Part shown: piece after piece, positions 8,180 to 43,500 of the stretch | Layout of the letters: each line of letters opens with the position of its first letter | Numbering within the stretch: position 1 is the stretch's first letter | Origin: Sedimentimonas flavescens | GTDB taxonomy: Bacteria > Pseudomonadota > Alphaproteobacteria > Rhodobacterales > Rhodobacteraceae | Assembly (NCBI RefSeq): GCF_019264375.1 | Contig: NZ_JAHVAI010000017.1 | Location: 1 to 45,196 of the forward strand | Direction: 5' to 3' | Length of the DNA: 45,196 bases | The notes under the pieces: model-generated | Database searches by the model: none | Seen by the model: the letters and a program-made list of their open reading frames with translations, nothing else | What the model was told of the DNA's origin: nothing | Program-made: the position numbers and the translations under genes

Positions 8180-8344
8180 ATGTCACTTGGTACGATCCTG
8201 ATCATTATTCTTGTGATTTTTCTGCTCGGCGGGTTCAGCGGGCGCTTCGGTGGCTATGGCTACGGCTTCGGTCATGCCGGAACCGGCGTTATTGGTACTG
8301 TGTTGATCATCGTGGTCATCCTGATGCTGCTGGGTCGCATCTGA
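8180..8344 (+). CDS. DUF3309 family small membrane protein
   Basis: A 54-aa protein with two hydrophobic segments (MSLGTILIIILVIFLLGG and VIGTVLIIVVILMLLGRI) separated by a Gly/Tyr-rich loop; this is the DUF3309 pattern, including the conserved start MSLGTIL and end LLGRI. The ribosome site is TAGGAGAAAG. Function is unknown; the family is often found with stress and envelope genes, as here. It ends 23 bases before the convergent Crp/Fnr gene. Confidence 0.85.
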   Translation: MSLGTILIIILVIFLLGGFSGRFGGYGYGFGHAGTGVIGTVLIIVVILMLLGRI

Positions 8345-8367
8345 AGGCAGGCCAATGCGCAGCGACG

Positions 8368-9096
8368 TCAGCGGAGAAGCGGCCCTTTCTGATCCATGTA
8401 GGACGGATCAAACTGGGCGAACCTGACCAGTTGGTCATAGTCGTCGAACGCGACAAACCCGTCCCGAAACGTGATCATTCCCGCTTCGCGCAACTGCCGC
8501 AGAACCCGGTTGACGTGGACGGCGCTCAGCCCAAGCGCATCGGCCAGGTGGTATTGCGTCAGCGGACAGGCAAAGCCTTCCCGGCTGGCCAGGCCGATCA
8601 GGGAAAGCCTCGCGCCAAACTCCAGCAGGAAATGCGCCATGCGCTCGGCAGCATCGCGACGCCCCACATCCACCAGATGCTCGACCACCATGGCCTCATC
8701 GCGGGACGCTGCCCACAAAACCGCGGTGGCCAACCGGGGCGTTTGCGCAAATGCATCCAAAAGGTCGGCAACGTGGATTTCCGTCACCTCGATCTCCGTC
8801 ACCGGCTCAATGCTGTGATCCGAGACGTGCAAAAGAACACTGCGCAGCCCCAGGAAGTCGCCGGGGATCTGGAAATCCACGATCTGCCGCTGACCATCCT
8901 CAAGAAGCTTGTAGGAACAGGCCCAGCCGGAGGCGAGGATATAAGCGGCCTGATCCGATTGCCCCTGATGGACAAGATCCCGCCCGGCCACAAAGGTGCG
9001 GCGGCGCTTGTGCAAGGACGCAAGCACCGACAGTTCAGGGTCCGACAAGGCGACGAATGCGCCGAGCTTTCGGACAAGCGGAGTGTTTTCGATCAT
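8368..9096 (-). CDS. Crp/Fnr-family transcriptional regulator
   Basis: A 242-aa regulator. Residues ~10-125 form a cyclic-nucleotide-binding-like beta barrel (HQGQSDQAAYILASGWACSY, QIPGDFLGLRS), then a long dimerisation helix, and a C-terminal winged helix (~150-225; LTQYHLADALGLSAVHVNRV as the HTH). Only two cysteines are present, so it cannot hold an FNR-type [4Fe-4S] cluster. The recognition helix has VHVNR rather than FNR's ETISR, so its exact site cannot be predicted. Start at 9096 because AGGA is correctly spaced; an in-frame ATG 12 codons earlier has no site. A CTGAT-N4-ATCAG box lies 54 bp upstream, which suggests autoregulation or control by another family member. Confidence 0.9.
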   Translation of the reverse strand: MIENTPLVRKLGAFVALSDPELSVLASLHKRRRTFVAGRDLVHQGQSDQAAYILASGWACSYKLLEDGQRQIVDFQIPGDFLGLRSVLLHVSDHSIEPVTEIEVTEIHVADLLDAFAQTPRLATAVLWAASRDEAMVVEHLVDVGRRDAAERMAHFLLEFGARLSLIGLASREGFACPLTQYHLADALGLSAVHVNRVLRQLREAGMITFRDGFVAFDDYDQLVRFAQFDPSYMDQKGPLLR

Positions 9097-24405: not shown

Positions 24406-25491
24406 GTGGGCCGCAACGGTCGTCGTTCAACAAACATGGCATTCACAAAGCTTTCCGTTCAGACCTTTGGCGTCGGCAAGGGCACTCCCGCCACGTCAAC
24501 ACCTGAAACCGACATCTGGGCAGTCTTCCGCGCGCTCAGAGATACTCGCAGCCTGTTCGGTCTCCGTCCAGGACATGTTCAAACGCTCCAAGCGATGCTG
24601 AGCTTTCTCAAGCCTGGGCATGGAGACACAGTCTTCGCTTCCAACGACGAGATCTGCCGTCGAGTTGGCGGGATCGATGAACGAACCCTCCGTAGGCACA
24701 TCGATCGCTTTGTTGAACTCGGTTTCATGAAGCGCCACGACAGCCCAAATCGCAAGAGATACCGAGTGAAGTCCTCCGAAGGTCAGTCCATTAGCTATGG
24801 CTTGTCGCTGGCTCCGTTGCTCGCGCGTGCCGGCGAACTACTTGCGACAGCCCAAGCGATGGAAAACGCTCGTCGGGATCGCGTGTTTTTGCGAAAGCAA
24901 ATCCTAACCAAACTTGCTCAGATCGACGAAGCTGACCCCGAGAACGAACTCACTCATCAGGTACGCCGAGTTCTTCGGAGGAAGCTCTCGATCGCGGAGT
25001 ATCGTGCTTTGCTCGGCGAACTGGAGGCTCAATGCAAACAGATGTCCACCGCGGTGGACGCACCAGAAACAATGAAACTGCCCGCCAATGACGGGCAAAC
25101 TGTCCGCCACCATTCTAAGTCTAAAAAAGAACAAAAAGATTTAGAAAGCGGGACCAACAGCGAAACACTTCCCCTGCAAACGCTCACAAGCGTTTGTGAC
25201 CAGGCTACATCGTTCGCAACCAACACACTTAGGAACTGGCACGATGTCGAAAGCCACGCGAGAACGCTCGCTCCAATGATGGGAATCCACGAAAGCACCT
25301 TCGAAAAGGCTGCTAGGAAGATAGGCTCTCAAAAAGCATCATGCGCCATCTTCATAATTCTCCAGATGAGCAATCGCATCCGAGACTTTGGAGCGTATTT
25401 CCACAGCATCACGCTCGGTCGCAGAGAAACTGACTTCAACCCATCACTGTTGTTGGAGAGGCTTTCTCATTCTGGGGCAGCAACTGCGTGA
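24406..25491 (+). CDS. repC: RepC, replication initiator
   Basis: A 361-aa initiator of the RepC family. N-terminal winged-helix part (~20-120; TVFASNDEICRRVGGIDERT, LRRHIDRFVELGFM) is well conserved, then a less ordered middle encoding the A+T-rich origin, and a C-terminal helical domain (SQKASCAIFIILQMSNRI). The GTG at 24406 has a purine-rich GGGGAAG before it; ATG 24436 (MAFTKL) is an alternative without a clear site. The ctRNA region lies directly upstream. Contains one candidate parS and ends on another. Confidence 0.92.
   Translation: MGRNGRRSTNMAFTKLSVQTFGVGKGTPATSTPETDIWAVFRALRDTRSLFGLRPGHVQTLQAMLSFLKPGHGDTVFASNDEICRRVGGIDERTLRRHIDRFVELGFMKRHDSPNRKRYRVKSSEGQSISYGLSLAPLLARAGELLATAQAMENARRDRVFLRKQILTKLAQIDEADPENELTHQVRRVLRRKLSIAEYRALLGELEAQCKQMSTAVDAPETMKLPANDGQTVRHHSKSKKEQKDLESGTNSETLPLQTLTSVCDQATSFATNTLRNWHDVESHARTLAPMMGIHESTFEKAARKIGSQKASCAIFIILQMSNRIRDFGAYFHSITLGRRETDFNPSLLLERLSHSGAATA
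25044..25059. promoter_or_regulatory. Candidate parS palindrome, copy 1
   Basis: GTCCACCGCGGTGGAC, a perfect 16-bp palindrome inside repC (encoding STAVD). repABC replicons carry short 16-bp palindromes bound by RepB; an identical copy lies 433 bases downstream. Confidence 0.75.
25079..25196. other. Predicted oriV region within repC
   Basis: An A+T-rich stretch (about 25112-25147, with CTAAAAAAGAACAAAAAG) is flanked by two perfect hairpins: TGCCCG/CGGGCA (25079-25097) and CAAACGCT/AGCGTTTG with a CACA loop (25177-25196). In characterised repABC plasmids oriV lies in an A+T-rich segment of repC, which fits. Confidence 0.6.
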
Positions 25492-25510
25492 TGTCCACCG
25501 CGGTGGACAT
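25491..25510. promoter_or_regulatory. Candidate parS palindrome, copy 2
   Basis: The same 16-bp palindrome as inside repC, extended here to a 20-bp perfect palindrome (ATGTCCACC-GC-GGTGGACAT) beginning at the last base of the repC stop codon. Confidence 0.8.
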
Positions 25511-25541
25511 GTTGAGAGGGAGAGATGGGCTGTGAAAGGGG

Positions 25542-25597
25542 TGACGGGAAGTGAGAACGGAAGAGTGGCTTCCGGCGCCCGTCGTGGAGAAGATCTG
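25542..25597 (+). promoter_or_regulatory. Shared 5' leader, type 1 (copy A)
   Basis: A ~56-nt leader running TGACGGGAAGTGAG, then AGAGTGGCTTCCGGCGCC and GTCGTGGAGAA directly before the ATG. It matches the leaders at 31759-31813 and 33653-33703 with few changes. It includes the ribosome site, so it may be a regulated translation-initiation region. Confidence 0.6.
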
Positions 25598-27766
25598 ATG
25601 GCGAAATCTGCCCAGAAAGTCACCCTGTCCCCGTCCCGGGACATTCCCTTCGACAAGCTCGTGCTGAGCCAGTCCAACGTCCGGCGCATCAAGGCCGGCA
25701 TCTCGGTCGAGGAACTGGCCGAAGACATCGCCCGCCGCGGGTTGCTGCAGAGCCTGAGCGTTCGGCCCATTCTGGCGGATGACGGGTCCGAGACCGGCAA
25801 GTTCGAAATCCCCGCTGGCGGCCGGCGCTTCCAAGCACTCTCGCTCCTGGTGAAGCAGAAGCGTCTGGCCAAGACGACACCCATCCCCTGCATCGTGCGG
25901 GATGCCAATTCCACCATCCTCGCCGAAGACGACTCACTCGCTGAGAACATGCAGCGCGCTGCCCTGCATCCGCTCGATCAGTTCCGCGCCTTCGCGGCGC
26001 TGCGGGAGAAGGGTCAGGGCGATGAGGAGATCGCAGCCGCTTTCTTCGTCACGCCGCAGGTGGTCAAACAGCGCCTGAAACTCGCAGCCGTGGCCCCTGC
26101 CCTGCTCGAGCTTTATGCCGAGGACGAGATGACGCTGGAGCAGCTGATGGCCTTCACGGTCAATCCGGATCACGAGCGCCAGGTTCAGGTCTGGGATGCG
26201 ATCAAGTCATCATGGAACAAGGAGCCCTATCAGATCCGGCGGATGCTGACGGAAACCTCGGTACGCGCCTCTGACCGTCGGGCCGTCTTTGTCGGCGTCG
26301 AGGCGTACGAGACGGCTGGTGGCACCATGTTGCATGACCTCTTCCAGGGCGATGACGGCGGCTGGCTGGAAGACCCGGCCCTGCTGGATCGTCAGGTCAG
26401 CGAGAAGCTTCAGGCTGAAGCCGAAGCGATCGCGACCGAAGGTTGGAAATGGATCGAGGTCTCGCTCGACCTGCCCTATGGCTACAGCCACGGTTTGCGG
26501 CGGCTGAGCGGAGACCCGGCGCCGATGACGGATGACGAAGGCGCGGCCCATGACAAACTGCTTGCCGAATACCGAGCGCTCGAAGAGGAATACGAGGGCC
26601 AGGATGAATTCCCCGAAGAGATCGACGCGCGTCTTGGCGAGTTGGAAGTCGCGATGGAGAAGCTCGAGGCCAGGCCGCTGATCTTCGACGCGGAGGAGAT
26701 CGCGAGGGCAGGGGCCTTCGTGACGCTTGATCGCTATGGCGAGCTTGCAGTTTATCGGGGCTTTGTCCGGCCCGAGGATGAACCTCGGGCAGACGTAGAC
26801 GTCCACAGCGGTGAACAGGCGGCAGACGGGCAGGGCGTTGAGCTTTCAACGGGGAGCAAAGTAGATGGTATCGGCCATGGCACGGTGATCACCTCTGCCG
26901 GTCAAATGCTTGGCGCGAACATGCCCGACGACGAGGACGATGGTGCGTTGAAGCCCTTGCCCGAGCGGCTGATCATGGAGTTGACGGCGCACCGGACATT
27001 GGCACTGCGGGAAGCTGTCGGGCGTTCTCCTGACGTCGCCCTGACGCTGCTGCTCCTGAAGCTCGTCAATGACACCTTCCGGACGTCCAGTTCGGCCGGC
27101 AGCTGCCTTGAGGCCTCGGTGCGTCACGTCTACATGTCCGCGCAGGCGAGCGATCTGAAGGATAGCGTGGTGGCAAAGCTGGTGGATGATCGCCACGCCG
27201 AGTGGGAGGCCGACTTGCCGCTCGGCGACGATGCCGTTCTTTGGGACTACCTGGCTTCCCTCGATCAGGCGAGCCGGCTGTCGCTACTCGCGCATTGCCT
27301 CAGCTTCGGGATCAACGCGCTCCATGAGAAGGTGAACCCTTATGGTGCCGGTATCTCCGCCAGCGGTTTGACCAAGCGGATGACACAGTCCGACTTGGTC
27401 GCACAGGCGGTCGAACTCGACATGGTCGAGGCGGGCTGGGAGCCGACGGTCGATACTTATCTGAACCGTGTGCCCAAGGCCCGGATCCTCGAGGCCGTGC
27501 GCGAGGCGAAAGGGGAGGGGACGGCGCAACTCCTCGATCATTTGAAGAAGGGCGAGATGGCGACCGAAGCCGAGCGTCTGCTGAAAGGCAGCGGCTGGTT
27601 GCCGGAGGTTCTTCGCCGTCACGACCTGGCGGCGCTCGATGCCGAAGACGGGCAGGGGGTGTCTGAGCCCGTTCCCGGCTCCGAGCAGGCCGAAGATGTC
27701 GACCTTCCCGCCTTCCTCACCGCTGAGCTGCCGAGCAATGAAGCATCGATGATGGCCGCGGAGTGA
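25598..27766 (+). CDS. Large ParB/RepB/Spo0J-family protein
   Basis: A 722-aa protein. Residues ~12-120 are a ParB N-terminal domain (SNVRRIKAGISVEELAED, PAGGRRFQALSLL, SLAENMQRAALHP) and ~125-180 a KorB-like HTH (FFVTPQVVKQRLKLAAVAP). The remaining 540 residues are acidic and helical, rich in Leu and Glu, and unlike RepB. Such long ParB-like proteins are common in plasmid maintenance or DNA-modification islands of alphaproteobacteria, where they may regulate transcription or DNA metabolism rather than partition. Start at 25598, preceded by GTGGAGAA; the upstream frame is the leader. Confidence 0.85.
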   Translation: MAKSAQKVTLSPSRDIPFDKLVLSQSNVRRIKAGISVEELAEDIARRGLLQSLSVRPILADDGSETGKFEIPAGGRRFQALSLLVKQKRLAKTTPIPCIVRDANSTILAEDDSLAENMQRAALHPLDQFRAFAALREKGQGDEEIAAAFFVTPQVVKQRLKLAAVAPALLELYAEDEMTLEQLMAFTVNPDHERQVQVWDAIKSSWNKEPYQIRRMLTETSVRASDRRAVFVGVEAYETAGGTMLHDLFQGDDGGWLEDPALLDRQVSEKLQAEAEAIATEGWKWIEVSLDLPYGYSHGLRRLSGDPAPMTDDEGAAHDKLLAEYRALEEEYEGQDEFPEEIDARLGELEVAMEKLEARPLIFDAEEIARAGAFVTLDRYGELAVYRGFVRPEDEPRADVDVHSGEQAADGQGVELSTGSKVDGIGHGTVITSAGQMLGANMPDDEDDGALKPLPERLIMELTAHRTLALREAVGRSPDVALTLLLLKLVNDTFRTSSSAGSCLEASVRHVYMSAQASDLKDSVVAKLVDDRHAEWEADLPLGDDAVLWDYLASLDQASRLSLLAHCLSFGINALHEKVNPYGAGISASGLTKRMTQSDLVAQAVELDMVEAGWEPTVDTYLNRVPKARILEAVREAKGEGTAQLLDHLKKGEMATEAERLLKGSGWLPEVLRRHDLAALDAEDGQGVSEPVPGSEQAEDVDLPAFLTAELPSNEASMMAAE

Positions 27767-27778
27767 TCTGGACCATCC

Positions 27779-27800
27779 GAGGGCGGGGAAACCCGCCCTC
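27779..27800 (+). terminator. Hairpin after the large ParB-like gene
   Basis: GAGGGCGGG pairs perfectly with CCCGCCCTC around a GAAA tetraloop, 13 bases after the stop codon. No U tract follows, so termination may be Rho-dependent, or the hairpin may protect the mRNA end. Confidence 0.6.
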
Positions 27801-27831
27801 AATCACATAAAATACAACAATATCAATATGA

Positions 27832-27853
27832 TGAATGCAAAGTGACGCATTCA
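27832..27853. promoter_or_regulatory. Inverted repeat before the 157-aa gene
   Basis: TGAATGC and GCATTCA, 8 bp apart, end 13 bases before ATG 27866 in an A+T-rich stretch. This is a plausible operator. Confidence 0.35.
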
Positions 27854-27865
27854 GGATGAGGAATC

Positions 27866-28339
27866 ATGTCTGCAACCACCATTCTCGACACCGCGCCCCT
27901 GGGCGCGCTCATTCGCTACACCGACAACAGTCCGAAACCACCTGCGCGGTTCACGAAGAAGCTCGCGGCCTGGGAACGCTCGAACGGCGTCGGCCGTCTC
28001 GTCAAAAAGGAGCCGCCGCGAGCCTATCCAACCTGGACGGCGCCGGCGTCGTTCACGCTGCACGAGGGGAACTTCTCCTCGGACGGGGTCATACTCGTGA
28101 CCATCATGCGAACGCATTTGGCTGACAGTGCGTTGACCTTCAAGGTAGCAGAGGAACCGAAGCCCGGACAGGTGCGCGTCCTGGTGGATTTTGGCGGCTG
28201 CACGGAGCTGCTCCACCTGGCCGAGTCTGTCACGGCTGCGGAACTCTGGATCGCCAGAGAAGGCTATCGCAACGCGCGGCTCGAGATCGTCGGCAGCGAG
28301 GGCGGCGATAGGGCAGGGGATGCGGAACTTGCCGCCTAA
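27866..28339 (+). CDS. Plasmid-type conserved hypothetical protein (157 aa)
   Basis: A soluble alpha/beta-looking protein containing GALIRYTDNSPKPPARFTKK near the start and FTLHEGNFSSDGVILVTIM in the middle. No domain recognised. AGGATGAGGAATC precedes the ATG. It follows the large ParB-like gene in the same direction, after a hairpin, and may have its own promoter. Confidence 0.7.
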   Translation: MSATTILDTAPLGALIRYTDNSPKPPARFTKKLAAWERSNGVGRLVKKEPPRAYPTWTAPASFTLHEGNFSSDGVILVTIMRTHLADSALTFKVAEEPKPGQVRVLVDFGGCTELLHLAESVTAAELWIAREGYRNARLEIVGSEGGDRAGDAELAA

Positions 28340-28724
28340 GCATGTAGAATCCAAGGGGTCCGCCAAAGCGCGGGCCTCTCACCCATCACGACTCTTTCCC
28401 GCGAGATCGCGGGGCACCATAGGGTCCAATCCAACACGAAACTAGCTCTGGTACCAAATGTCTGCCGGGAGGCTGGCAGCGATAGCATCAGCGGGACACC
28501 CGGCTCCAGTCAGCCGTCGCACCATCCCCCGCTCGCCATTCCCTTCCTTGCCCCGAATCCCGTCTTCGAGATCAACCCGCGAGGGGTCGGACTACGGGCG
28601 AGCCCGTGCCGCCGGGTGGATTCGGACGAGCCGAACGCACCCGGTGATGTCAGCCAGTCTTCGGGCCTGCGGGGTCCTGTCGCGCGGGGGATGGTCCTCC
28701 GCCTCCAAGACAGGAGCCAAACAG
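28340..28724. other. Gene-poor stretch before the 54-aa gene
   Basis: 385 bases without a credible gene. It includes a CCCGCG/CGCGGG hairpin near 28399-28414 and, at its end, the type 3 leader (28672-28724). Confidence 0.5.
28672..28724 (+). promoter_or_regulatory. Shared hairpin leader, type 3 (copy F)
   Basis: GGGTCCTGTCGCG ... GGTCC ... AAGACAGGAGCC before ATG 28725. CCTGTC (28676-28681) pairs with GACAGG (28709-28714). The layout matches the ssb leader at 30900-30949. The closing strand of the stem overlaps the purine-rich ribosome site. Confidence 0.5.
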
Positions 28725-28889
28725 ATGTCCCGCAAAGATGCTCACGCCTTCGCCGCTTCCCTCGCCGCCACGCTCATGGTCTCGATCGTCGTCTTCCAGG
28801 CAGGAGATGGAACCTTTGGCGCCGTCCCCGCCGATGAAATCGACGGAGACGAGGTACAGGTGGTGGGTGAGATCGACCCGTGGGCGTAA
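28725..28889 (+). CDS. 54-aa membrane or secreted peptide
   Basis: Starts MSRKDAHAFAASLAATLMVS with a hydrophobic core (~9-26) resembling a signal anchor, then an acidic tail (PADEIDGDEVQVVGEIDPWA). ACAGGAGCC is the ribosome site. It ends inside a hairpin. I do not recognise a family. The shared leader with ssb suggests co-regulation with the plasmid's DNA-processing genes. Confidence 0.55.
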   Translation: MSRKDAHAFAASLAATLMVSIVVFQAGDGTFGAVPADEIDGDEVQVVGEIDPWA

Positions 28890-28902
28890 AGCCCACGGGG
28901 TC
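28875..28902 (+). terminator. Hairpin overlapping the stop of the 54-aa gene
   Basis: GACCCGTGGGC pairs with GCCCACGGGGTC (one bulged base) around GTAAA, which contains the stop codon. No U tract. Confidence 0.5.
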
Positions 28903-29143
28903 GAAGACAGCTCGGGCTCGGGGCAAAGCTCCGATCCGGGCCTTTCGCTTGTCCACCGTTCCGGCCGACCGGCAGACTGAGCCGACGATGGTCGGCATGC
29001 CTTTGCATTAAGAAAACAAGCTCGAGCGTCAGCCAATCTGGCTTTGCACAGACATCAGCGGTCAATTGCAGTGCAATGAATGCAGCTTGAACATCGTCAG
29101 GGTTCGTCGGAAGCTGCGTTATATTTGGTTCAGGTCACGTCGC

Positions 29144-30196
29144 ATGCTCTACAAATCATTGATTTCCTTATACGGTTCATCGCTTGCGGGTAAATCGGCT
29201 CCTGCTGACGACCTGGTTTGGCACTTTGCGCCGTCCGAGGATCTGAGGCTTTTTCGCGAGTATGCGCTCGATGCCCTGCAGCAGGCGAAAGTGTACCTGC
29301 TCGACCATATGGCTGCAGCCTATGCCGATACGCTTCATGACGCAGTCGCCAAACAGGCTTCGGAAACCGGTCTTCCCGCAATGGCCATTCTGGGTGAGGT
29401 AAAGCTCCCCGCCGACGTTGTTTGGGTCGAATTCGACGATCGAGAGCTGGGTGTCGCGCGCTTTGAACGGGCTTCACCTGTAACGAGACATGACGACAAA
29501 CCCGTAGGCACTGGTCTACGCGGCTATCTCATCGATGATCGAAACAAGGGCCACTTGCGGATCACGATGTTCCATCGCCGCGAGAATTCGCGGGTCGTCG
29601 ATCCAATCTGCGCTTTGCTCGTGAAGCGAATTCCGACAGGCGAGTTGAATTACGACAACGTCGAAGTCGAGTTGAGCCGTTCCATGGTCGAATTCCGTGT
29701 GCGGAGCGGTGATACGATGGAAATGATCAACGGTCGGCGCACGGTGCACCAAGTTGAAACAGGCTACGACCTGTTCATCCCTTACGCGCTCTTTGCGATG
29801 CTGGTTTCCCCGGACTTGGGTGGCATCATTCCCACGGAAAACGAGACGTTCACAGCCAAGGATGCAAAGACCGCTCGAAAGTTCGGGAAGTCCTGGATTC
29901 TAGGCGCGCAGAAATCCCATCTTACAATCCGCATTGGTCCGCAGGCCGCGGCTCACATGCAGGAGCGGCAGGCTCGCCTTGAGTTCGAGCGTCAGGTCCA
30001 GGACGGGCGAAGCGGCCCTGTTCGCCATTGGGTGAGCGAACATGAGCGGCGCTATCGCAGCGGTAAAGTTGTGTTGGTGAAGGGGCACCACAGAGGGCAA
30101 TTGCCTGCGCCTAATCTGCCAACGCGTGTGATGGGACCAAAACCCGAGGCAACGATTTTCGAGTTGGACACAATTGATCCGCCCAACCTAGACTGA
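29144..30196 (+). CDS. Hypothetical protein, plasmid/phage type (350 aa)
   Basis: A mixed alpha/beta protein. The N-terminal half contains HFAPSEDLRLFREYALDALQ, the middle VELSRSMVEFRVRSGDTMEM, and the basic C-terminal region GPVRHWVSEHERRYRSG then KVVLVKGHHRGQLP. This last block recurs in phage- and plasmid-encoded proteins, where its role is unknown. Base use is visibly less G+C-rich than in the neighbours, suggesting separate acquisition. I prefer ATG 29144 (MLYKSL) over the earlier 29066, but neither has a strong ribosome site. Confidence 0.6.
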   Translation: MLYKSLISLYGSSLAGKSAPADDLVWHFAPSEDLRLFREYALDALQQAKVYLLDHMAAAYADTLHDAVAKQASETGLPAMAILGEVKLPADVVWVEFDDRELGVARFERASPVTRHDDKPVGTGLRGYLIDDRNKGHLRITMFHRRENSRVVDPICALLVKRIPTGELNYDNVEVELSRSMVEFRVRSGDTMEMINGRRTVHQVETGYDLFIPYALFAMLVSPDLGGIIPTENETFTAKDAKTARKFGKSWILGAQKSHLTIRIGPQAAAHMQERQARLEFERQVQDGRSGPVRHWVSEHERRYRSGKVVLVKGHHRGQLPAPNLPTRVMGPKPEATIFELDTIDPPNLD

Positions 30197-30949
30197 ACCC
30201 GGAGTTTTCCATGCAGTCATCTCGTCTGTCGTCAATCTATCGTCGTCACATTGACGAACAGCCGTAGTTTTCGGCCTTGATCGGACCAGGTCGGTGCCAA
30301 AAGCTCAGGGTGCCGGAAACCCTGCGATACCGGCGCACAAGCGGATTCCATTCTCCCCGATCAGTTCGGCCAGGAAGTGGTCCATCCCTTGGCGATGGCT
30401 TCCGCATTGGTGCAACCTTTCGCCATCTGCCAATCCGAGACCGTGGAGATTGACCTGGCGACTTTCTTCCGCATTTTCTGCAGAGCGTTGGGCGACAATG
30501 TCCCGAGATCGAAATCAGTTATTTGGTGCGGTCGGTGTCCGGAATATTCCGGTATCGATAGCCCGTCGCGGTAGGGCCCTGCATTTCCCGGCAGGCAAGG
30601 GCAGGGGTGAGAGCTGGTGATAGCCACTTAGGCCGCTAGCGGTGTGCTGGGCTTTGGTTCAAACAGTCCCGATTGGCAAGGGGACATGGTCTGGCATGGG
30701 CTCCCCGCATCTCTCTGTCTCCTGGGCCATCCCTTCGACTGACAATCCCCTAATCCCGTTCGGTCTCCTGCGCGCAACCCCGCGTCAGTCCGGGCCGTGT
30801 TGGCCGCCTTTGGCGTCCTGCCCGCTCCACCCCGGTCCTCTGGGGGTGTCCGGTGTCCATGTTGTCCACCGTGCACGCGTCACCCGATGGGCTTTTTCAG
30901 GGTCTTGTCGAAGGGACGGTCCCGAAGACAGGAAACACAGGAGCTTATC
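30197..30949. other. 753-base stretch without a convincing gene
   Basis: Several overlapping short frames exist on both strands (for example a minus-strand frame over 30361-30627), but none has a clear start signal or recognisable motif. CCGGAGTTTTCC directly before an 18-codon frame at 30211 resembles the start of the type 2 leader. The region may be decayed remains of former genes. The ssb leader lies at its right end. Confidence 0.4.
30900..30949 (+). promoter_or_regulatory. Shared hairpin leader, type 3 (copy G), upstream of ssb
   Basis: GGGTCTTGTCGAAGGGACGG then TCCCGAAGACAGGAAACACA before the ATG. CTTGTC (30904-30909) pairs with GACAGG (30927-30932) with one G-U pair, and GGGA/TCCC forms an inner stem. 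The same pattern precedes the gene at 28725. Confidence 0.5.
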
Positions 30950-31354
30950 ATGCAGAACATCGTCATCCTCGCCGGCAACACCGGTCAGACCCCCGAAGTC
31001 CGCACCACCCAGAGCGGCACCAAGATCACCAACTTCAGCCTCGCCACCTCGCGTCCCCGCCTCTCGGAAGGCCGTGTGATGCGCGACGAGAACGGCTACC
31101 GGGTCATGGACACCGAATGGCACCGCATCACCTGCTTCAACGGTCTCGGCAAGACGGTCGCTGAGCATTGCGAAAAGGGCATGAAGGTCCTCGTCCACGG
31201 CCGCATCCACTACACCAAGTGGATCGATAGCATGGGGAACGACCGCTACGGCTGCGAGATCATCGCCGAAAAGGTCGACTTCCTGAGCCGCCCGAAGTCG
31301 GCCGAGAACGAAAACCCCGAGCTGGTAGACCGTGACGATGAGATCCCGTTCTGA
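30950..31354 (+). CDS. ssb: Single-stranded DNA-binding protein
   Basis: A 134-aa SSB. The OB fold runs over residues 1-~115 (QNIVILAGNTGQTPEVRTTQ, TEWHRITCFNGLGKTVAEHC, KGMKVLVHGRIHYTKW), and the protein ends DDEIPF, the acidic tip that binds replication and repair proteins. The linker is very short, as in many plasmid-encoded SSBs, which assist plasmid replication and establishment. CACAGGAGC precedes the ATG. The GNTGQ sequence replaces the usual GNLGR of chromosomal SSB. Confidence 0.93.
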   Translation: MQNIVILAGNTGQTPEVRTTQSGTKITNFSLATSRPRLSEGRVMRDENGYRVMDTEWHRITCFNGLGKTVAEHCEKGMKVLVHGRIHYTKWIDSMGNDRYGCEIIAEKVDFLSRPKSAENENPELVDRDDEIPF

Positions 31355-31373
31355 GGAACGGGCTCTCCCCCTT

Positions 31374-31412
31374 GGACCCGGTGGGGCAACCCGCCGGGTC
31401 CTATGTTGTTTT
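31374..31412 (+). terminator. Terminator after ssb
   Basis: GGACCCGG (31374-31381) pairs with CCGGGTCC (31394-31401), with a further GGG/CCC inner stem and a GCAA loop, followed by TATGTTGTTTT. Confidence 0.7.
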
Positions 31413-31418
31413 AGGAAA

Positions 31419-31712
31419 CTATCGGTCCGATTTCGCCTTCACGGCGCTCCGCACCAGCTTGCCGAAGGCGCGGTCCTTTTCGCGGCGCTCGGCAAGGCTG
31501 GCGGAGTTGAAGGCATCCTCGGCCTGTAGTTTATGCCAGCGGGCGAGCCGCGCAGGGTCGAGGCTGCAGTCTTCGACGGCAGCGAGGATGGCGCAGCCGG
31601 GCTCAGTCTCATGCTCGCAGTCGGTGAACCGGCATCTTGCAGCTAGCGCCCCGATATCCTCGAACACGTCGGCGATGCCTGCGGCAGCATCGGTCAGCCG
31701 CAATTCGCGCAT
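31419..31712 (-). pseudogene. rsgA: Orphan C-terminal fragment of RsgA (ribosome-small-subunit GTPase A)
   Basis: 97 residues match the end of RsgA: the start GMREL is the residue block after the GTPase DTPG motif, then the zinc-binding set C-x4-C-x-H-x5-C (CRFTDCEHETEPGC), and the closing EDAFNSASLAERREKDRAFG. The OB fold and all GTPase motifs are missing, and the sequence before the ATG does not match RsgA. As a GTPase it cannot work; a retained zinc-finger peptide is possible because the frame is open. Confidence 0.8.
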
Positions 31713-31758
31713 GCCTCTCCCGCCTCTTTCGAGAGTTACAGGAGTGCCGGTTTCCCGG

Positions 31759-31813
31759 TGACGGGTTGAGGGCTGGGAGAGTGGCTCCCGGCGCCTGTCG
31801 CGGAGGAATGCCG
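31759..31813 (+). promoter_or_regulatory. Shared 5' leader, type 1 (copy B)
   Basis: TGACGGGTTGAGGGCTGG, then GAGAGTGGCTCCCGGCGCC, then TGTCGCGGAGGAATGCCG before ATG 31814. Closest to copy A; the GGAGG ribosome site is in the conserved part. Confidence 0.65.
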
Positions 31814-33013
31814 ATGGGCGTTTTGGAAGTTCTGGATGCGGTACAGCCGACGCGGGCTGGTGGCTGGAAAGTGGATGTGAGCCGGGGTGACCGGAATGGG
31901 CGGGTGTCGTCCGAATGGTTCAACAGGCCGGATGACGAGCGGTACCTGTCGCTCGACGATCTCTGGGCCAATGTGAAGGGTCGCTCTGAGCGCAGCCGCA
32001 GCCGGGTGGTGCAAACCGCCGACATCCGTGTCGAGGCAGCGCGCGACAGTGCAGAGCGGCTGCACTTGGTCCTGCCGAAAGCGCATGAGCCGATCGCACC
32101 CACGCACTGGGCCTTCGGCCAGCTTGCCAGCATCGTCGGTGCCCCGGCATCCTACCTGCGGCAGCTTCCCGCGCCTCTGGCGGGGATCAACCTGCAATAC
32201 GGTTTGACCAACCACCGCGCCGAGCAGGTGAAGACCTTCGAGACCGAGGATGGCCGCACGGAACTGCGCGCCGTGACCGGTCCCGACTACGGCCGCATCC
32301 ATGACTTCGAGCTTGTCGAGGCGGTTCAGCGCATCGCGGGCAATGGCACGGGCGATACGCGCTGGAAGGTACCGGGTGTGCTGGATTGGTCGACCGGGGT
32401 CTACAACCCCGATGTCGAAATAAGTCGCGACACGACCACGCTCTACGCCTCAGACCGCGATGTCTTCCTGTTCCTGGTCGACGATCGCAATCCGATCGAA
32501 GCAGGCAAGTTACCCGACGGCTCCCCCGATCTCTATTTCCGGGGCTTCTATTGCTGGAATTCCGAGGTGGGCGCGAAGACCCTTGGCATGGCGAGCTTCT
32601 ATCTGCGGGCGGTGTGCCAGAACCGCAACCTCTGGGGTGTCGAGGACTTCCAAGAGATCAAGATCCGTCACTCGAAATACGCCGCGTCGCGCTTCGCACA
32701 TGAGGCGGCGCCGGCGCTGACGCGGTTTGCCAATTCCTCGCCGCAGGGGTTCGTGAACGGGATCCGGGCAGCTCGACAGCAGGTCGTGGCGCGCAGCGAT
32801 GAGGACCGTGCCGATTTCCTGCGCAAACGGGGTTTCTCGAAGGCCGAATCCGGCAAGATCATCGAGAAGGTGCTGGTGGAGGAAGGTCGCCCGCCCGAGA
32901 GCATCTTCGACTTCGTACAGGGCATTACCCGGCTTGCGCGCGACAAGACTCAGCAGGATGCCCGCCTTGATATGGAAGGGCGCGCCAAGAAGCTTCTCGA
33001 CCGCGTTGGTTGA
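31814..33013 (+). CDS. DUF932 family protein
   Basis: A 399-aa plasmid/phage-type protein. The DUF932 domain (~75-330) is recognised by HWAFGQLASIVGAPASYLRQ, VTGPDYGRIHDFELVEAVQR, DRDVFLFLVDDRNPIEAG and RGFYCWNSEVGAKTLGMASF. Members are abundant on mobile elements, and some are thought to act in DNA recombination or regulation, without direct proof. I take the second ATG (31814) because GGAGGA is too close to the first (31808). A strong palindrome follows the gene. Confidence 0.85.
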   Translation: MGVLEVLDAVQPTRAGGWKVDVSRGDRNGRVSSEWFNRPDDERYLSLDDLWANVKGRSERSRSRVVQTADIRVEAARDSAERLHLVLPKAHEPIAPTHWAFGQLASIVGAPASYLRQLPAPLAGINLQYGLTNHRAEQVKTFETEDGRTELRAVTGPDYGRIHDFELVEAVQRIAGNGTGDTRWKVPGVLDWSTGVYNPDVEISRDTTTLYASDRDVFLFLVDDRNPIEAGKLPDGSPDLYFRGFYCWNSEVGAKTLGMASFYLRAVCQNRNLWGVEDFQEIKIRHSKYAASRFAHEAAPALTRFANSSPQGFVNGIRAARQQVVARSDEDRADFLRKRGFSKAESGKIIEKVLVEEGRPPESIFDFVQGITRLARDKTQQDARLDMEGRAKKLLDRVG

Positions 33014-33020
33014 GGTGGCG

Positions 33021-33044
33021 ACCGGAGGCGATATCGCCTCCGGT
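33021..33044 (+). terminator. Palindromic hairpin after the DUF932 gene
   Basis: ACCGGAGGCGAT (33021-33032) and ATCGCCTCCGGT (33033-33044) form a perfect 24-bp palindrome, 7 bases after the stop, followed by CTCGTCCCTGTTT. As RNA it folds with a 4-base loop. Confidence 0.65.
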
Positions 33045-33106
33045 CTCGTCCCTGTTTCATCGATCTGCTACCGTGCCCGACATGTTTAGGTATTGGAAGT
33101 ACGCGC

Positions 33107-33607
33107 ATGGAAGAAATCGATTGGTCAGATCGTGCATTTTATGATGACGGCGAATGGGTTACCTGGTCGGAAATCGACGAGCAGCTTCGCTACAAGGAGT
33201 GGGGCGCTAAATACCCGAACGCGATCCGGTCTATGATCCCATATTTTGAGGATCTCCTGTCCCTCGCGGAAAGCTACCACCTCGAGACCGGCCTTCACCT
33301 CTCTGTCTACGGCGATATCGGTGAGCTGTTCGGTGCTATCACGTACGGTATCAAGCTGAACAAGACCTACGCCCAGGGTGCTGACGGAAGACTTGGCAAT
33401 GATCATGTCGAGGTCAAAACCATTACGCCATTCAAGACAAAGGATGTGGTTGTGGTCGATACCAATGGGCATTTCAACAAGCTCTTGGTTGTAAAGATCA
33501 ACGAGGATTTTCAGGTCTCGGGTCGGATGATCGACCGAAAAGATCTTCCAAAGCGCGAAGGGCGCTACTTGCGGGTTCGATGGGGCGATTTACCAACGCC
33601 GAAATGA
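33107..33607 (+). CDS. Probable PD-(D/E)XK-fold protein (DUF6998-like)
   Basis: A 166-aa protein with an acidic N-terminus. Residues ~66-130 contain the arrangement of a PD-(D/E)XK nuclease core: helix Glu in GDIGELFGAIT, an Asp before the strand in GADGRLGNDHVEVKTI, and the paired E-V-K of the catalytic strand, followed by KDVVVVDTNGHFNKLLVVKI. This fits orphan endonuclease-like proteins (DUF6998 pattern). No methylase lies beside it. Base use is less G+C-rich than in the flanking genes. The nuclease assignment is inference from motif order. Confidence 0.55.
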   Translation: MEEIDWSDRAFYDDGEWVTWSEIDEQLRYKEWGAKYPNAIRSMIPYFEDLLSLAESYHLETGLHLSVYGDIGELFGAITYGIKLNKTYAQGADGRLGNDHVEVKTITPFKTKDVVVVDTNGHFNKLLVVKINEDFQVSGRMIDRKDLPKREGRYLRVRWGDLPTPK

Positions 33608-33652
33608 TCGGCCCGATCAGCGACAGAGAGTCCGAGGGGGCGGTTTGGTCTT

Positions 33653-33703
33653 TGACGGTTTGAAGCGGGGAGAGAGGCTCTACGCACCGTCGGAGATATG
33701 CCC
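33653..33703 (+). promoter_or_regulatory. Shared 5' leader, type 1 (copy C)
   Basis: TGACGGTTTGAAGCGGG, then GAGAGAGGCTCTACGCACC and GTCGGAGATATGCCC before ATG 33704. Same order of blocks as copies A and B, but shorter by a few bases and more diverged. Confidence 0.55.
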
Positions 33704-34222
33704 ATGTTCGATCTTACTCTCCAAACTCAGCCGGAAATACAGAAAACAGGTTTGCCGCCGAGCTTCCTGACCGTTCTTGCAGATCAAGACTTGCCGTTTG
33801 CGCTCACGACGGCTTGCCATGCTCCCGCGGCGCTCATGTCCGGGCATGCACACCCCAAGGTACTGGAGCGGTTTGCCACGCTGGCCGAAGCCATGCAGGG
33901 GGCAATCGTTCACGCCGAAAATGTCACCCCTGAAGACGCGCCGCGCATCCTGGCGATCCTCGATCGGGAGGGCCGCCTCGTTCTGGCCGGGGCTACCTAT
34001 GATGGCGGGGTCGCATGGTGCCACCCGGTCTCGGATGCCGCCGAAGCCCGCGCCGTCGTGTCCGAGGCCAGCCAGACCCGCGCGCAGGCCATGCGGGCGG
34101 CCGAGTGGCATGCACATGGCCTCGCGCGACGGCTGCGGCACCACGCCGACGTTCTCGATGCCCGTCTTGTCGATCCGCTCTGGCGTGTCTTCGCGTCTCG
34201 CGCACTGCAGATCGCGGCGTGA
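33704..34222 (+). CDS. Plasmid-type hypothetical protein (172 aa)
   Basis: A soluble, Ala-rich protein with ALTTACHAPAALMSGHAHPK in the first third and a helical C-terminus (AEWHAHGLARRLRHHADVLD). No domain recognised. ATG 33704 is chosen over 33698 for spacing to CGGAG. Its leader links it to the parB-like and DUF932 genes. Confidence 0.65.
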   Translation: MFDLTLQTQPEIQKTGLPPSFLTVLADQDLPFALTTACHAPAALMSGHAHPKVLERFATLAEAMQGAIVHAENVTPEDAPRILAILDREGRLVLAGATYDGGVAWCHPVSDAAEARAVVSEASQTRAQAMRAAEWHAHGLARRLRHHADVLDARLVDPLWRVFASRALQIAA

Positions 34223-34269
34223 CGCCCCAGAGTCAGAGAAGGGCAGGGGAGGATGTGAGCCTAGGAGGA

Positions 34270-34317
34270 CGAGAGAGCCTCGGGGTTCAGATCCTTTCCC
34301 TCATTTCGGAGTTTCCA
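34270..34317 (+). promoter_or_regulatory. Shared 5' leader, type 2 (copy D)
   Basis: CGAGAGAG, then GGGG, ATCCTTTCCCTCATTTCGGA and GTTTCCA directly before ATG 34318. It matches the helicase leader at 40499-40548. Confidence 0.6.
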
Positions 34318-34809
34318 ATGTCCAAGATCGAACCCACCTTGGCCGCGCCGATGGCGCCGTCCAGGATTGATTTCGCCGCCGTGCTGGCTCGGCAGTCCGA
34401 GCGTGACGCGCGGATCGCAGCTTTGCGTCCGGCCAACAAGGAGCGCCTCTTCGATGGCCTGACTGCCGCGGGCATCACCCATGTGACCGTGAGCTTTGAC
34501 GGCTATGGCGATAGCGGCCAGGTTGAAAGCATCGAAGCCTACGCTGGCGACGCCGAAGTCACTTTCCCCAAGACCCAGATCGCCTATGCCGCATTGACCT
34601 GGGACGACCCGGAGGTCGAGATGCGGGCGCTTTCGCTCGAAGATGTCGTCGAGCAACTGGCCTACGACTTCCTCTCCGACACCCATTGCGGCTGGGAGAA
34701 CAACGACGGGGCTTACGGCGAATTCTGCTTCGACGCGAGCGCTCGCACCATCCACCTTGAGTTCAACGAGCGCTTCAGCTCGTCCGAACTCTACACGCAC
34801 GATTTCTGA
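34318..34809 (+). CDS. DUF6878-like protein
   Basis: A 163-aa protein with a helical N-terminus, VTVSFDGYGDSGQVESIEA in the middle and the block DFLSDTHCGWENNDGAYGEF then IHLEFNERFSSSELYTHDF. This order is that of DUF6878, a family carried by plasmids and integrative elements with unknown function. CGGAG precedes the ATG. Followed 10 bases later by the DUF6915-like gene. Confidence 0.75.
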   Translation: MSKIEPTLAAPMAPSRIDFAAVLARQSERDARIAALRPANKERLFDGLTAAGITHVTVSFDGYGDSGQVESIEAYAGDAEVTFPKTQIAYAALTWDDPEVEMRALSLEDVVEQLAYDFLSDTHCGWENNDGAYGEFCFDASARTIHLEFNERFSSSELYTHDF

Positions 34810-35396: not shown

Positions 35397-35430
35397 TCGC
35401 CCCACCCATCCCTTCATCCAAATCCAGTAA

Positions 35431-35450
35431 CCGGCCGCCCGGCCGGGTTT
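35431..35450 (+). terminator. Hairpin after the J-domain-like gene
   Basis: CCGGCCG and CGGCCGG pair around a CC loop, followed by GTTTTCCCC; it lies 34 bases beyond the stop and 20 bases before the next ATG. Confidence 0.6.
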
Positions 35451-35470
35451 TCCCCATTCAGGAGGTCCCC

Positions 35471-40370: not shown

Positions 40371-40498
40371 GGTGGAACCCCCTTTCTGGCTTGGCTCAGA
40401 ATATAGAACAGAACAAGAACAAAATCAAGCCGAGCTTCCGGGACGCGTCGGATTCGAGAGGGAGAGAGGGGCCGGGAAAGATCAGGTCCGAGGCTGCC

Positions 40499-40548
40499 CG
40501 AGAGAGGGTGTACGGGCCTTATCCTGTCCTTCATTCCGGAGTTTCCCG
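40499..40548 (+). promoter_or_regulatory. Shared 5' leader, type 2 (copy E)
   Basis: CGAGAGAG, then GGG, ATCCTGTCCTTCATTCCGGA and GTTTCCCG before ATG 40549. Nearly the same as copy D at 34270, although the two genes are 6.2 kb apart and unrelated in sequence. Confidence 0.65.
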
Positions 40549-43500
40549 ATGACCCATCTTGCCCCTGTTGCGCAGGCGTCCTTGCCTGCGCCCATTGTCC
40601 CGTTGGCAGCAAATCCTGCCCCTGCGATCGTTGCTGTTGCCGAAGCGCTGCAGCCCGATCTGGCGCAAGGGCTTCAGATCGACGCGCTGCGCCTCCGCCG
40701 CGAGATGGAACATGCCTTTGGCGGTTCCGATGCGACCGGTGCCTGGGACTGGAAGTTCGCCTATGAGGCGGGCGAGGTGGCGCTGATCCTCTTTCTGCGG
40801 AAATTCGGTCGGGCGTTGCTTGCGCGTGCCGGCTCGCCTGCGGCGCTCTTGCCGATCCTCGCCAAGGTGGCAGGCCTCTTGCCCACGCACACCCGGCGGT
40901 CGGAAGAGATGGAGCGCTTTCAGCAATTCTCGACGCCGCTGCCCATGGGGCTCGCGGCTGTGGCGGCAGCACAGATCACGCCCCGTGATCTTGTCCTAGA
41001 GCCGTCTGCCGGGACCGGGCTTCTGGCGATCCTCGCCGAGATCGCCGGCGGCACTCTGGCTCTGAACGAGTTGGCGGGCACCCGCGCCGATCTTCTGCGC
41101 CTGCTGTTCCCGGCCCGACCGGTCACGGGGTTCGATGCCGCGCAGATCGACGATCATCTCGATGCCTGCTCAAGCCCGAGCGTCATTCTGATGAACCCGC
41201 CCTTCTCGGCCCAAGCCAATGTCGATGGTCGGTCGACCGAGGCGACGGCCCGACATCTGCGCTCGGCCCTTGCGCGCTTGGTTCCCGGCGGACGGCTCGT
41301 GGCCATCACAGGGGCCGGTTTCGCGCCGGATGCGCCGGCCTGGGCCGAGACCTTCGGCCGTCTGACCGAGACGGCCCATCTCATCTTCACCGGCGCGGTG
41401 TCGGGCGCAGCTTTCGCCAAGCACGGCACCAGCTTCGAGACGCGGATTTCTGTCTTCGATAAATGCCGCGGCGGTGAGCCGGGCGGCATCACCGCTGACC
41501 TGCACCAGCCCACGTCCCCGGACGTAGCGCATCTGATGTCCAGGGTCACTGCAGAGGTTCCGCCGCGCCTGGAGCTTGATCCGGCAGTTACTGTGAGTCT
41601 GGGCCACACTTCCCTCTTCCCGGGAAGTCCTGCCCCGACCACCCGCAAACCCGTCAGCCGATCCCGCGCGACCTCCGCAGCTCAACCGGCGAAACCAGAC
41701 ACACCGATTGAGGCCGAGGAACTGGACTACGCTCTCCGCGACGCCGCCGAGGACGAAGATGCGACACGCCTGTCCGACGCGATCTACGAGACCTTCCGTT
41801 TGCAGGCGATCGAGATCCCGGGCGCGGCCCAACACCCGACCAAGCTTGTGCAATCCGCGGCCATGGCCTCGGTCGCACCGCCGAAACCCAGCTACCGCCC
41901 CAAGCTTCCCGCGACCATCCTGCGCGACGGCCTGCTGTCCGACGCGCAGCTTGAGACCGTCATCTACGCGGGCGAAGCCCACTGCGCATACCTCGCCGGG
42001 TCGTGGGCCGTCGATGAGACCGGAGACGTGGTCGCCGCTGCACCGGAGGACGCCGCTGACGCCGTCCGCTTCCGCCGCGGCTTTTTCCTCGGCGATGGCA
42101 CCGGTGCGGGCAAGGGCCGCCAGTCGGCTGGGATCCTGCTCGACAACTGGTGCCAAGGCCGCCGCAAGGCGCTCTGGATCTCGAAAAGCGACAAGCTCCT
42201 CGAGGACGCGCAGCGCGACTGGTCGGCGCTCGGGCAGGAGCGCCTGCTGGTGACGCCGCTGTCGCGTTTCGCACAAGGCCGCGACATCCCGCTGACCGAG
42301 GGCATCCTCTTCACCACCTATGCGACGCTGCGCTCGGAAGAACGGGGTGCCAAGAAATCCCGCGTCGACCAGATCGTCGACTGGCTCGGGGCAGATTTCG
42401 ACGGGGTGATCCTGTTTGACGAAAGCCATGCCATGGCGAATGCCGCCGGGGGCAAAGGCGAACGCGGCGAAACACAAGCCTCGCAACAGGGCAGGGCGGG
42501 TCTGCGCCTGCAGCACAAACTTCCGAATGCCCGCGTGGTCTATGTCTCGGCCACGGGCGCGACGACCGTCCACAACCTCGCCTATGCGCAGCGGCTCGGG
42601 CTTTGGGGCGGGGAGGATTTTCCCTTTGCGTCCCGCGCCGAGTTTGTCGAAGCCATCGAGGCTGGCGGTGTCGCGGCGATGGAGGTTCTGGCCCGCGACC
42701 TTCGGGCGCTCGGCCTCTACACGGCGCGGTCGCTGTCCTATGATGGTGTCGAATACGAGATGCTGGAGCATGCGCTCAGCCCCGAGCAGCGCAGCATGTA
42801 CGATGCCTATGCCGGGGCCTTCGCCATCATCCACAACAACCTGACCGCGGCGTTGGAGGCCGCGAACGTCATGGGCGACAGCGGTACGCTGAACCGGCAG
42901 GCCAAGTCTGCTGCCCGGTCAGCTTTCGAGTCCGCCAAGCAGCGTTTCTTCGGCCATTTGCTCACCTCGATGAAGACCCCCACGCTGATCGCATCCATCG
43001 ATGCCGATCTGGCAGCGGGTCATGCGGCGGTCATCCAGATCGTCTCGACGGGTGAGGCGCTGATGGAGCGCCGCCTGTCCGAAATCCCGACAGACGAATG
43101 GAACGACATCCGCTGTGACATCACGCCCAGGGAATATGTCCTGGACTACCTCGCCCATTCCTTCCCGGTGCAGCTCTACGAGCCCTTCACCGACAGCGAG
43201 GGCAACCTCTCGTCGCGGCCCGTGACACGGGACGGCCAGCCCGTCGAATGTCGCGATGCCGTTCGCCGTCGTGACGCGCTGATCGAAAAGCTGGCCTCGC
43301 TGCCGCCGGTGCCGGGGGCGCTCGACCAGATCGTCCAGCGCTTCGGCACCGATCTCGTGGCCGAGGTCACGGGGCGTTCACGGCGCATCGTGCGCAAGGG
43401 CGAAGGGCATTCGGCACGGCTCGTGGTGGAGAGCCGGGCCGGAGCCGCGAACCTCGCGGAAACCCAAGCCTTCATGGATGACGAAAAGCGTATCCTGATC

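Follow-up and report, generated by a model that had tools for sequence, protein, structure and literature searches.

A putative cis-acting RNA leader shared by unrelated genes of alphaproteobacterial plasmids

The window analysed here is a stretch of 45,196 nucleotides (nt) of Sedimentimonas flavescens (contig NZ_JAHVAI010000017.1), and its contig is a repABC plasmid (RepA at 22028, RepB at 23212, RepC at 24406). Three genes of the window, all on the + strand, carry a similar leader next to their start codons: a ParB-like gene of 722 amino acids (aa) at 25598-27766 (Pfam ParB_N, E value 6.6e-7), a DUF932-like gene of 399 aa at 31814-33013 (Pfam DUF932 at 21.1 bits, slightly below the cut-off of 23; DUF932 is the annotation of many of its homologues) and a 172-aa gene at 33704-34222, here called RadC172, whose homologues are often annotated 'DNA repair protein RadC'. 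A first-pass annotation had proposed that these genes share a leader of about 50 nt, alignable block by block, and that it serves a dispersed plasmid regulon as a common control element. Searching both strands for the pattern TGACGG..GAG..GGCT returned exactly three matches (25542, 31759 and 33653), all on the + strand and adjoining these genes. The shared blocks are real, except that the one given as GAGAG is inexact in the ParB copy, which reads GGAAGAGTGGCT. The length was underestimated, as the conserved unit extends about 25 nt further 5' to take in a GA-rich box (GA-box), whose sequence is degenerate in the DUF932 and RadC172 copies of the window.

Alignment with homologues from named plasmids gives a type 1 leader consisting of a hairpin with a 5'-side bulge and a purine loop, and of the GA-box GAGNNAGAG about 20 nt upstream. 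The lower stem, P1, pairs GACGGG with CCCGTC (variants: GACAGG with CCTGTC, GGCGGG with CCCGCC), the bulge measures about 5-7 nt and is of the UUGAG type (TTGAG in DNA), and the upper stem, P2, pairs GGGAG with CTCCC or CGAGAG with CTCTCG under an apical loop AGNGG. P1 often continues into GGAG, the Shine-Dalgarno (SD) sequence; the SD usually lies 6-9 nt before the AUG and either adjoins the base of the hairpin or is paired with it. In the window, all on the + strand, the ParB leader has the GA-box GAGAGGGAGAG at 25514-25524 and its bulged hairpin and SD at 25537-25589 (P1, 25543-25548 with 25578-25583; P2, 25558-25563 with 25569-25574; loop AGTGG, 25564-25568; SD, 25586-25589). Folded as a single sequence, this copy departs from the consensus, and GGGG facing GGAG in the outer P1 is unable to close over the SD. 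The DUF932 leader has a degenerate GA-box, GAGTTACAG, at 31733-31741 and its bulged hairpin and SD at 31754-31805 (P1, 31760-31765 with 31794-31799; P2, 31772-31779 with 31785-31792; loop AGTGG, 31780-31784; SD, 31802-31805). The leader of the 172-aa gene shows a degenerate GA-box, GAGTCCGAG, at 33628-33636 (found by reading, outside the pattern-scan list) and a type 1 bulged hairpin at 33648-33697, in which P1 pairs TCTTTGACGG with CCGTCGGAGA and encloses the SD at 33692-33695.

A covariance model, R1, was built from nine seed leaders, two of them from the window (the ParB and DUF932 copies); the window RadC172 copy was left out. A search of the host genome (3.38 Mb) with R1 at E <= 1 found three places, all in the window: the DUF932 leader (74.5 bits), the ParB leader (56.5 bits) and the non-seed leader of the 172-aa gene (30.8 bits). 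No fourth leader was detected there at this threshold, 150 of 973 first-look candidates being scored. Whole-genome searches gave R1 matches in 39 of 198 genomes of the host's family (E <= 0.01), in 25 of 385 genomes of its class (E <= 0.001) and in 22 of 299 genomes of its phylum, all 22 within the same class. Another class of the phylum yielded a match in 1 of 274 genomes (L241), likely the product of transfer or contamination, since no open reading frame (ORF) longer than 50 aa begins within 26 nt after it and its flank resembles, by eye, the ArdC leaders described below. Two exact patterns had no match in viral_contigs.

At E <= 0.001, R1 gave 169 matches, 165 of them distinct, in 98 sources, which comprised the window, six loci from plasmids and loci that account for most of the genome matches. 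An ORF of at least 60 aa begins 0-10 nt 3' of the element in 160 of these 165 copies. By tblastn, 156 copies precede ParB-like (70), DUF932 (47), ArdC (23) or 172-aa family (16) genes and nine match none of them; the blastp count was 69 ParB, 45 DUF932 and 19 172-aa family copies, plus a cluster of 23 ArdC-like proteins, with three of the 19 falling among the nine that lack a tblastn match. The ArdC assignment is based on one Pfam-checked member (ArdcN, E = 5e-43; MPTase-PolyVal, E = 2.6e-49). Copies found on chromosomal contigs probably sit in integrated elements.

Among the 156 type 1 leaders whose gene was identified, 139 contain a relaxed GA-box pattern, compared with 14 of 156 control windows further upstream. 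By family, the leaders gave 67/70 (ParB), 37/47 (DUF932), 23/23 (ArdC) and 12/16 (RadC172), and the controls 7/70, 7/47, 0/23 and 0/16. Counts were lower with a stricter pattern (34/70, 22/45, 15/23 and 4/19, with controls of 3/140, 3/90, 4/46 and 0/38, in the same order). The GA-box is unpaired in the consensus folds of the ParB, DUF932 and ArdC leaders, and is flanked by a short weak stem in that of RadC172.

Conservation was also examined in loci chosen by protein alone, as the best 80 DUF932 loci of GTDB contigs, mostly from Rhodobacterales. The leader precedes all 77 of the DUF932 genes having upstream DNA (a count read by eye in 65 distinct sequences), the other 3 of 80 starting at a contig edge. 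Column identity across 70 distinct upstream regions of 300 nt is 0.82-0.95 at positions -75 to -1, 0.50-0.63 at -120 to -76 and 0.21-0.41 beyond. Identity falls beyond about -120, so conservation belongs to the leaders and is lost in more distant DNA; it thus reaches well past the ribosome site, where the first-pass proposal could have failed. Seventeen plasmid records were requested, all selected for DUF932, and 14 of the 15 that were searched whole contain an R1 match (E <= 0.01). In 10 further plasmid DUF932 regions an R1 leader (E <= 0.001) was found in six: directly 5' of DUF932 in L230 and L237, before ParB in L235, L236 and L239, and as a ParB-type remnant about 100 nt upstream of DUF932 in L238. 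In L231, L232 and L234 R1 matches lie elsewhere in the records, outside the stretch fetched.

Two further genes of the window are preceded by leaders that likely correspond to the 'type 2' of the first-pass annotation: a DUF6878 gene (34318-34809, + strand; Pfam DUF6878, E = 5.8e-53) and a gene for a strawberry-notch-type helicase (40549-44925, + strand; Pfam AAA_34, E = 1.3e-123, and Helicase_C_4, E = 1.1e-97, for the frame from 40363). These leaders follow the type 1 plan, with a GA-box and a longer bulged hairpin whose purine loop is mostly GAGAGA. The DUF6878 leader spans 34230-34311 on the + strand (GA-box 34230-34238, GAGAGA-loop hairpin, SD 34308-34311, ATG 34318), and the strawberry-notch leader 40456-40541, also on the + strand (GA-box 40456-40466, GAGAGA-loop hairpin, SD 40538-40541, ATG 40549). 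Type 2 leaders were collected from 70 places for DUF6878 and 42 for strawberry-notch, duplicates and places without a recognisable start and SD being dropped, and the GA-box is present in 56 of the 59 distinct DUF6878 leaders that remained and in 34 of the 35 for strawberry-notch. Initial type 2 alignments were poor and were improved by trimming to the GA-box end, 3 of 51 DUF6878 rows and 0 of 29 strawberry-notch rows being dropped for length. GAGNNAGAG was also sought in 87 loci, all near DUF932 because they consisted of the window, six loci from plasmids and the 80 chosen by protein; of the 431 sites found, 251 lie 35-110 nt before a start with an SD. As many as 244 of these 251, a count in which one leader may contribute two sites, belong to the five gene families DUF6878 (87), DUF932 (61), RadC172 (46), strawberry-notch (39) and ParB (11). 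With five other patterns, between 9 and 82 sites had an SD and a start; AGGNNGAGA, the pattern with 82, may partly match the same leaders.

Separate MAFFT alignments of the four type 1 families (70 ParB, 45 DUF932, 22 ArdC and 19 RadC172 leaders, three of the last unconfirmed) led RNAalifold to the same bulged hairpin in each. Covariation was evaluated in seven alignments (the four families, the protein-selected DUF932 set, strawberry-notch and DUF6878), with structures derived from the alignments themselves. Between 91.8 and 98.3% of cells are paired, and in all seven alignments double-change cells exceed those of all 300 shuffles. When pairs showing a double change are counted, four of the seven alignments beat nearly all shuffles (at most 2 of 300 reach the count) and RadC172 is moderate (15 of 300), these ranks not being probabilities because the shuffles leave relatedness in. 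The seed alignment has 89.3% paired cells, and 9 double-change cells versus 2.9 in shuffles. A covariation-supported fold thus lies before the start codon of homologous genes, as is expected of a cis-regulatory structured RNA. Comparison of the sequences shows a predicted fold that exists on the mRNA strand, has been kept with compensatory changes and marks a small gene set. On this basis the leaders are copies of one putative cis-acting RNA element of alphaproteobacterial plasmids, and we consider it nearly certain that a conserved RNA leader is common to a set of plasmid-entry-type genes. With upstream alignments and covariance comparison both pointing to leaders that are conserved and structured, the data support the idea that a dispersed plasmid regulon has a control element in common, and the candidate regulon exceeds the three genes originally named.

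The position of the hairpin suggests how such an element might act. The SD is predicted to be unpaired with a mean probability of 0.10 in ArdC (22 copies), 0.21 in ParB (62), 0.15 in RadC172 (17) and 0.28 in DUF932 (39), as against 0.45, 0.46, 0.31 and 0.45 after shuffling of the upstream part; these values come from 140 of the 165 copies, the other 25 being without a clear SD, start or family. In the window, the 172-aa copy scores 0.00. Predicted occlusion of the SD by default is therefore a family trend rather than a rule, clear in the window 172-aa copy and weak in the other two, since the family means are lowered while the window ParB and DUF932 copies are partly open. The presence of the same leader on unrelated genes, including relatives of anti-defence genes, points to a shared translation switch. 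We think it probable, with some reserve, that the element is an often closed translational control leader of a plasmid-establishment and anti-restriction regulon under a common factor. The closed hairpin would keep translation low by default; a common trans-acting factor, either an RNA-binding protein or a small RNA, would read the GA-box and the loop and would set the translation of all leader genes together. One possible outcome would be a burst of translation after plasmid entry, before the factor accumulates. A bolder version, which we hold only tentatively, would be a class-wide RNA regulon of plasmids and integrative elements, kept silent in the donor by a single RNA-binding repressor encoded on the plasmid and translated in a burst on entry, an RNA-level counterpart of the Frpo elements of plasmid leading regions. 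It would cover the ArdC, ParB-like, DUF932, RadC-annotated, strawberry-notch and DUF6878 genes.

Several observations weigh against translational control by a common factor. Pairs with a double change are unexceptional in the protein-selected DUF932 set (198 of 300 shuffles reach the count) and in DUF6878 (56 of 300), and outer P1 pairs fail in 16-23 of the 70 ParB leaders. Occlusion is not found in every copy, the SD being unpaired with a probability of 0.37 in the window ParB copy and 0.50 in the DUF932 copy. The S. meliloti pSymA record, the remaining one of the ten further plasmid regions, was searched whole and has a DUF932 gene and no R1 match. In Rhizobium leguminosarum L007 and in L235 and L236, DUF932 follows ParB and, in the cases seen, the leader stands on ParB only, DUF932 having a different hairpin that is terminator-like in most. 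A DUF932 gene lying second, after ParB, and lacking a leader implies that some genes of the set can do without a copy of their own. In addition, no regulator was identified here, and the strand comparison has two biases, described below.

Among other explanations, the one that survives best, although we regard it as unlikely, is a passive RNA device without any regulator, in which the GA-box would serve as a ribosome standby site and the hairpin would fix the level of translation or protect the 5' part of the mRNA. The GA-box and the loop do resemble an SD sequence, the hairpin lies at the ribosome site and no regulator was found here; the conservation of loop, bulge and GA-box sequence in four unrelated genes nevertheless seems more than a set-point needs. 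CU-rich small RNAs of the CcsR, AbcR and alpha-r14 kind are widespread in hosts of this class, and the GA-box and loop could instead be targets through which such RNAs block or open translation. A host factor shared across the class would match the presence of the element in many families, but the complement of the GA-box is low in information and no small RNA was matched, none having been searched for; we consider this explanation improbable.

Which strand forms the hairpin is an important question, since the genes are like those of plasmid leading regions, in which Frpo elements fold in the entering DNA. A G-U pair in mRNA becomes a C-A mismatch on the opposite strand, and vice versa. In the protein-selected DUF932 set, 186 of 1140 cells are G-U and 26 are A-C, and column pair 13/47 reads GC 24, GU 21, AU 15 and AC 0. 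In all seven alignments A-C is below a slid-column control (0.5-2.3% versus 5.2-8.5%) and G-U is above it (16-31% versus 11-19%), a comparison subject to two biases: four of the seven alignments contain copies found with the RNA model, and all seven structures were predicted on the sense strand by RNA rules. The three protein-found sets (DUF932, strawberry-notch and DUF6878), taken together with the antisense folds, are the fairer part of the test, being free of the first bias. Their consensus energies are -24.0 for sense versus -3.8 for antisense in DUF932, -8.3 versus -1.7 in strawberry-notch and -11.8 versus 0.0 in DUF6878. Because G-U is kept and A-C avoided on the mRNA strand, the leader most likely folds as mRNA and not as the transferred DNA strand.

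We accordingly give very little weight to the notion of a hairpin acting in the entering single-stranded DNA, as an Frpo-like promoter or primer site. Besides the kind of genes involved, one plasmid speaks for it: on Aminobacter pSR7 (L005) the gene set lies beside traG-traD-traC, and between traC and traA is the motif GGGCGCAATTATACGTC, a candidate nick motif of the pTiC58 type. If GGGCGCAATTATACGTC is nicked like that of pTiC58, the set would enter first, with the transferred strand as template. The nick motif with two mismatches has 47 matches in 36 genomes versus 68 in the reversed control, and at one mismatch it occurs in 1 of 13 plasmid records, so that recognisable nick motifs are too scarce for a wider comparison of orientation with oriT. 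Against such action stand the G-U pairs, which become C-A mismatches on the transferred strand, and the avoidance of A-C (with the RNA-rule bias noted above), as well as the collapse of the antisense consensus fold in three of three sets. Furthermore, the type 1 hairpin touches the SD and would be too short for -35 and -10 boxes, which were not searched for. Functionless recent copying of one upstream segment can be set aside almost entirely: the copies do move with the genes, but the compensatory changes, the identity peak at -75 to -1 with its fall further out and the presence in many families all speak against it.

The leader can also be compared with known elements. No credible Rfam family (Rfam 15) was found at the gathering threshold in the window and L002-L005, nor at E <= 5 in 25400-34500, and no prior description of the leader was found in the literature searched, most subscription papers and a 2017 list of 224 RNA motifs lying outside that search. 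The radC RNA, which precedes integrase, methylase, antirestriction, RadC and similar DNA-handling genes, is likewise a cis-regulatory RNA (Rfam type Cis-reg). It is listed as RF01754 in a table of PMC2864571. With 149 positions and several hairpins it differs from the single bulged hairpin of the leader, and it occurs in 4 of 299 phylum genomes, all of one genus outside the host's class. RF01754 has no match in the window and none on this contig among the 12 matches listed for the host genome, the best of which (contig C56) reaches 20.6 bits against a cut-off of 40; R1, in turn, has no match at seven radC loci. The radC RNA was rejected as the family of the leader on the grounds of score, architecture, distribution and the lack of R1 matches. 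STAXI (RF01728) is placed near SSB, topoisomerase, antirestriction and integrase genes in the part of PMC2864571 that treats it, where RNA and single-stranded DNA were also weighed against each other. It consists of tandem pseudoknots in Enterobacteriales, whereas the leader has no RF01728 match.

The Frpo or ssi single-strand promoters, described in sections of PMC11541004 as leading-region elements folding as incoming DNA, are likewise folded elements before early anti-defence genes of incoming plasmids. They fold as transferred DNA and act as promoters, whereas the leader, in contact with the ribosome site, most likely folds as mRNA; folding on the transferred (template) strand, a strand deduced on one plasmid, was not found for it. 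Polyvalent or ArdC-type early genes of conjugative elements share gene content with the present set, namely ArdC-N with MPTase-PolyVal, ParB-like proteins and large helicases. These systems are treated as proteins in PMC5512222, and the words 'leader' and 'untranslated' are absent from the available text of that paper.

The surroundings of the leaders offer further observations. The 172-aa protein matches no Pfam, NCBIfam or PHROG family, despite its RadC annotation on many plasmids, and gives chance-level matches only in the PDB (best E = 0.044). The DUF932 protein is unusually conserved, the best 80 GTDB loci being 92-99% identical to that of the window; a sequence search returned no solved relative, and a structure prediction from 15 near-identical sequences was unusable (mean predicted local distance difference test score 34.4). 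PADLOC reports PD-Lambda-5_A for the ParB-like protein (E = 0.0045) and mad2 for the strawberry-notch protein (E = 2.2e-7). Between SSB and the DUF932 leader, on the - strand (31419-31712), an ORF of 97 aa has a match to the C-terminal region of the GTPase RsgA that scores far below family cut-offs, and it looks like a gene fragment. A perfect palindrome, GTCCACCGCGGTGGAC, is found within repC (25044-25059) and directly after it (25493-25508), the latter copy immediately 5' of the GA-box of the ParB leader; a copy with two mismatches lies within the ParB-like gene (26801-26816). With at most three mismatches there are four matches versus 0.46 expected. The palindrome resembles, with two changes, the repABC parS consensus given in a passage of PMC9040568, GTTNNNNGCNNNNAAC, and these sites are likely a parS array.

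Other leaders were noticed by eye. A second conserved block (GGGGAAAGCCTTCCCC ... GCGGGG ... CCCCGCAACGCCCC) lies 5' of the ArdC leader in L050, L051, L053, L083, L091, L132 and others, and may hold a promoter or another RNA. At 35430-35470 of the window is another recurrent intergenic leader, with a CCGGC..GCCGG-type hairpin followed by a T-rich stretch, (C)AGGAG or a variant of it, and the ATG; it is also present before DUF932 in L007, L231-L236 and L238, as a terminator-like element adjoining the ribosome site. In Novosphingobium (L008) no R1 match was obtained at the DUF932 or ParB starts, the sole one at E <= 1 being 104 nt long on the minus strand (8333-8436, E = 0.006). The ParB leader of this locus (5535-5644) shows GA-rich DNA and, in other letters, what may be a bulged hairpin, and is perhaps a Sphingomonadales version.

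If the leader is read as proposed, it would be a sequence-and-structure tag for plasmid genes of one early or establishment programme across Alphaproteobacteria. The genes so tagged include several of unknown function, namely those for DUF932, DUF6878 and the 172-aa protein. The prediction is that tagged genes would be translated together, and control at plasmid entry would become testable at the RNA level in laboratory rhizobia and rhodobacters.

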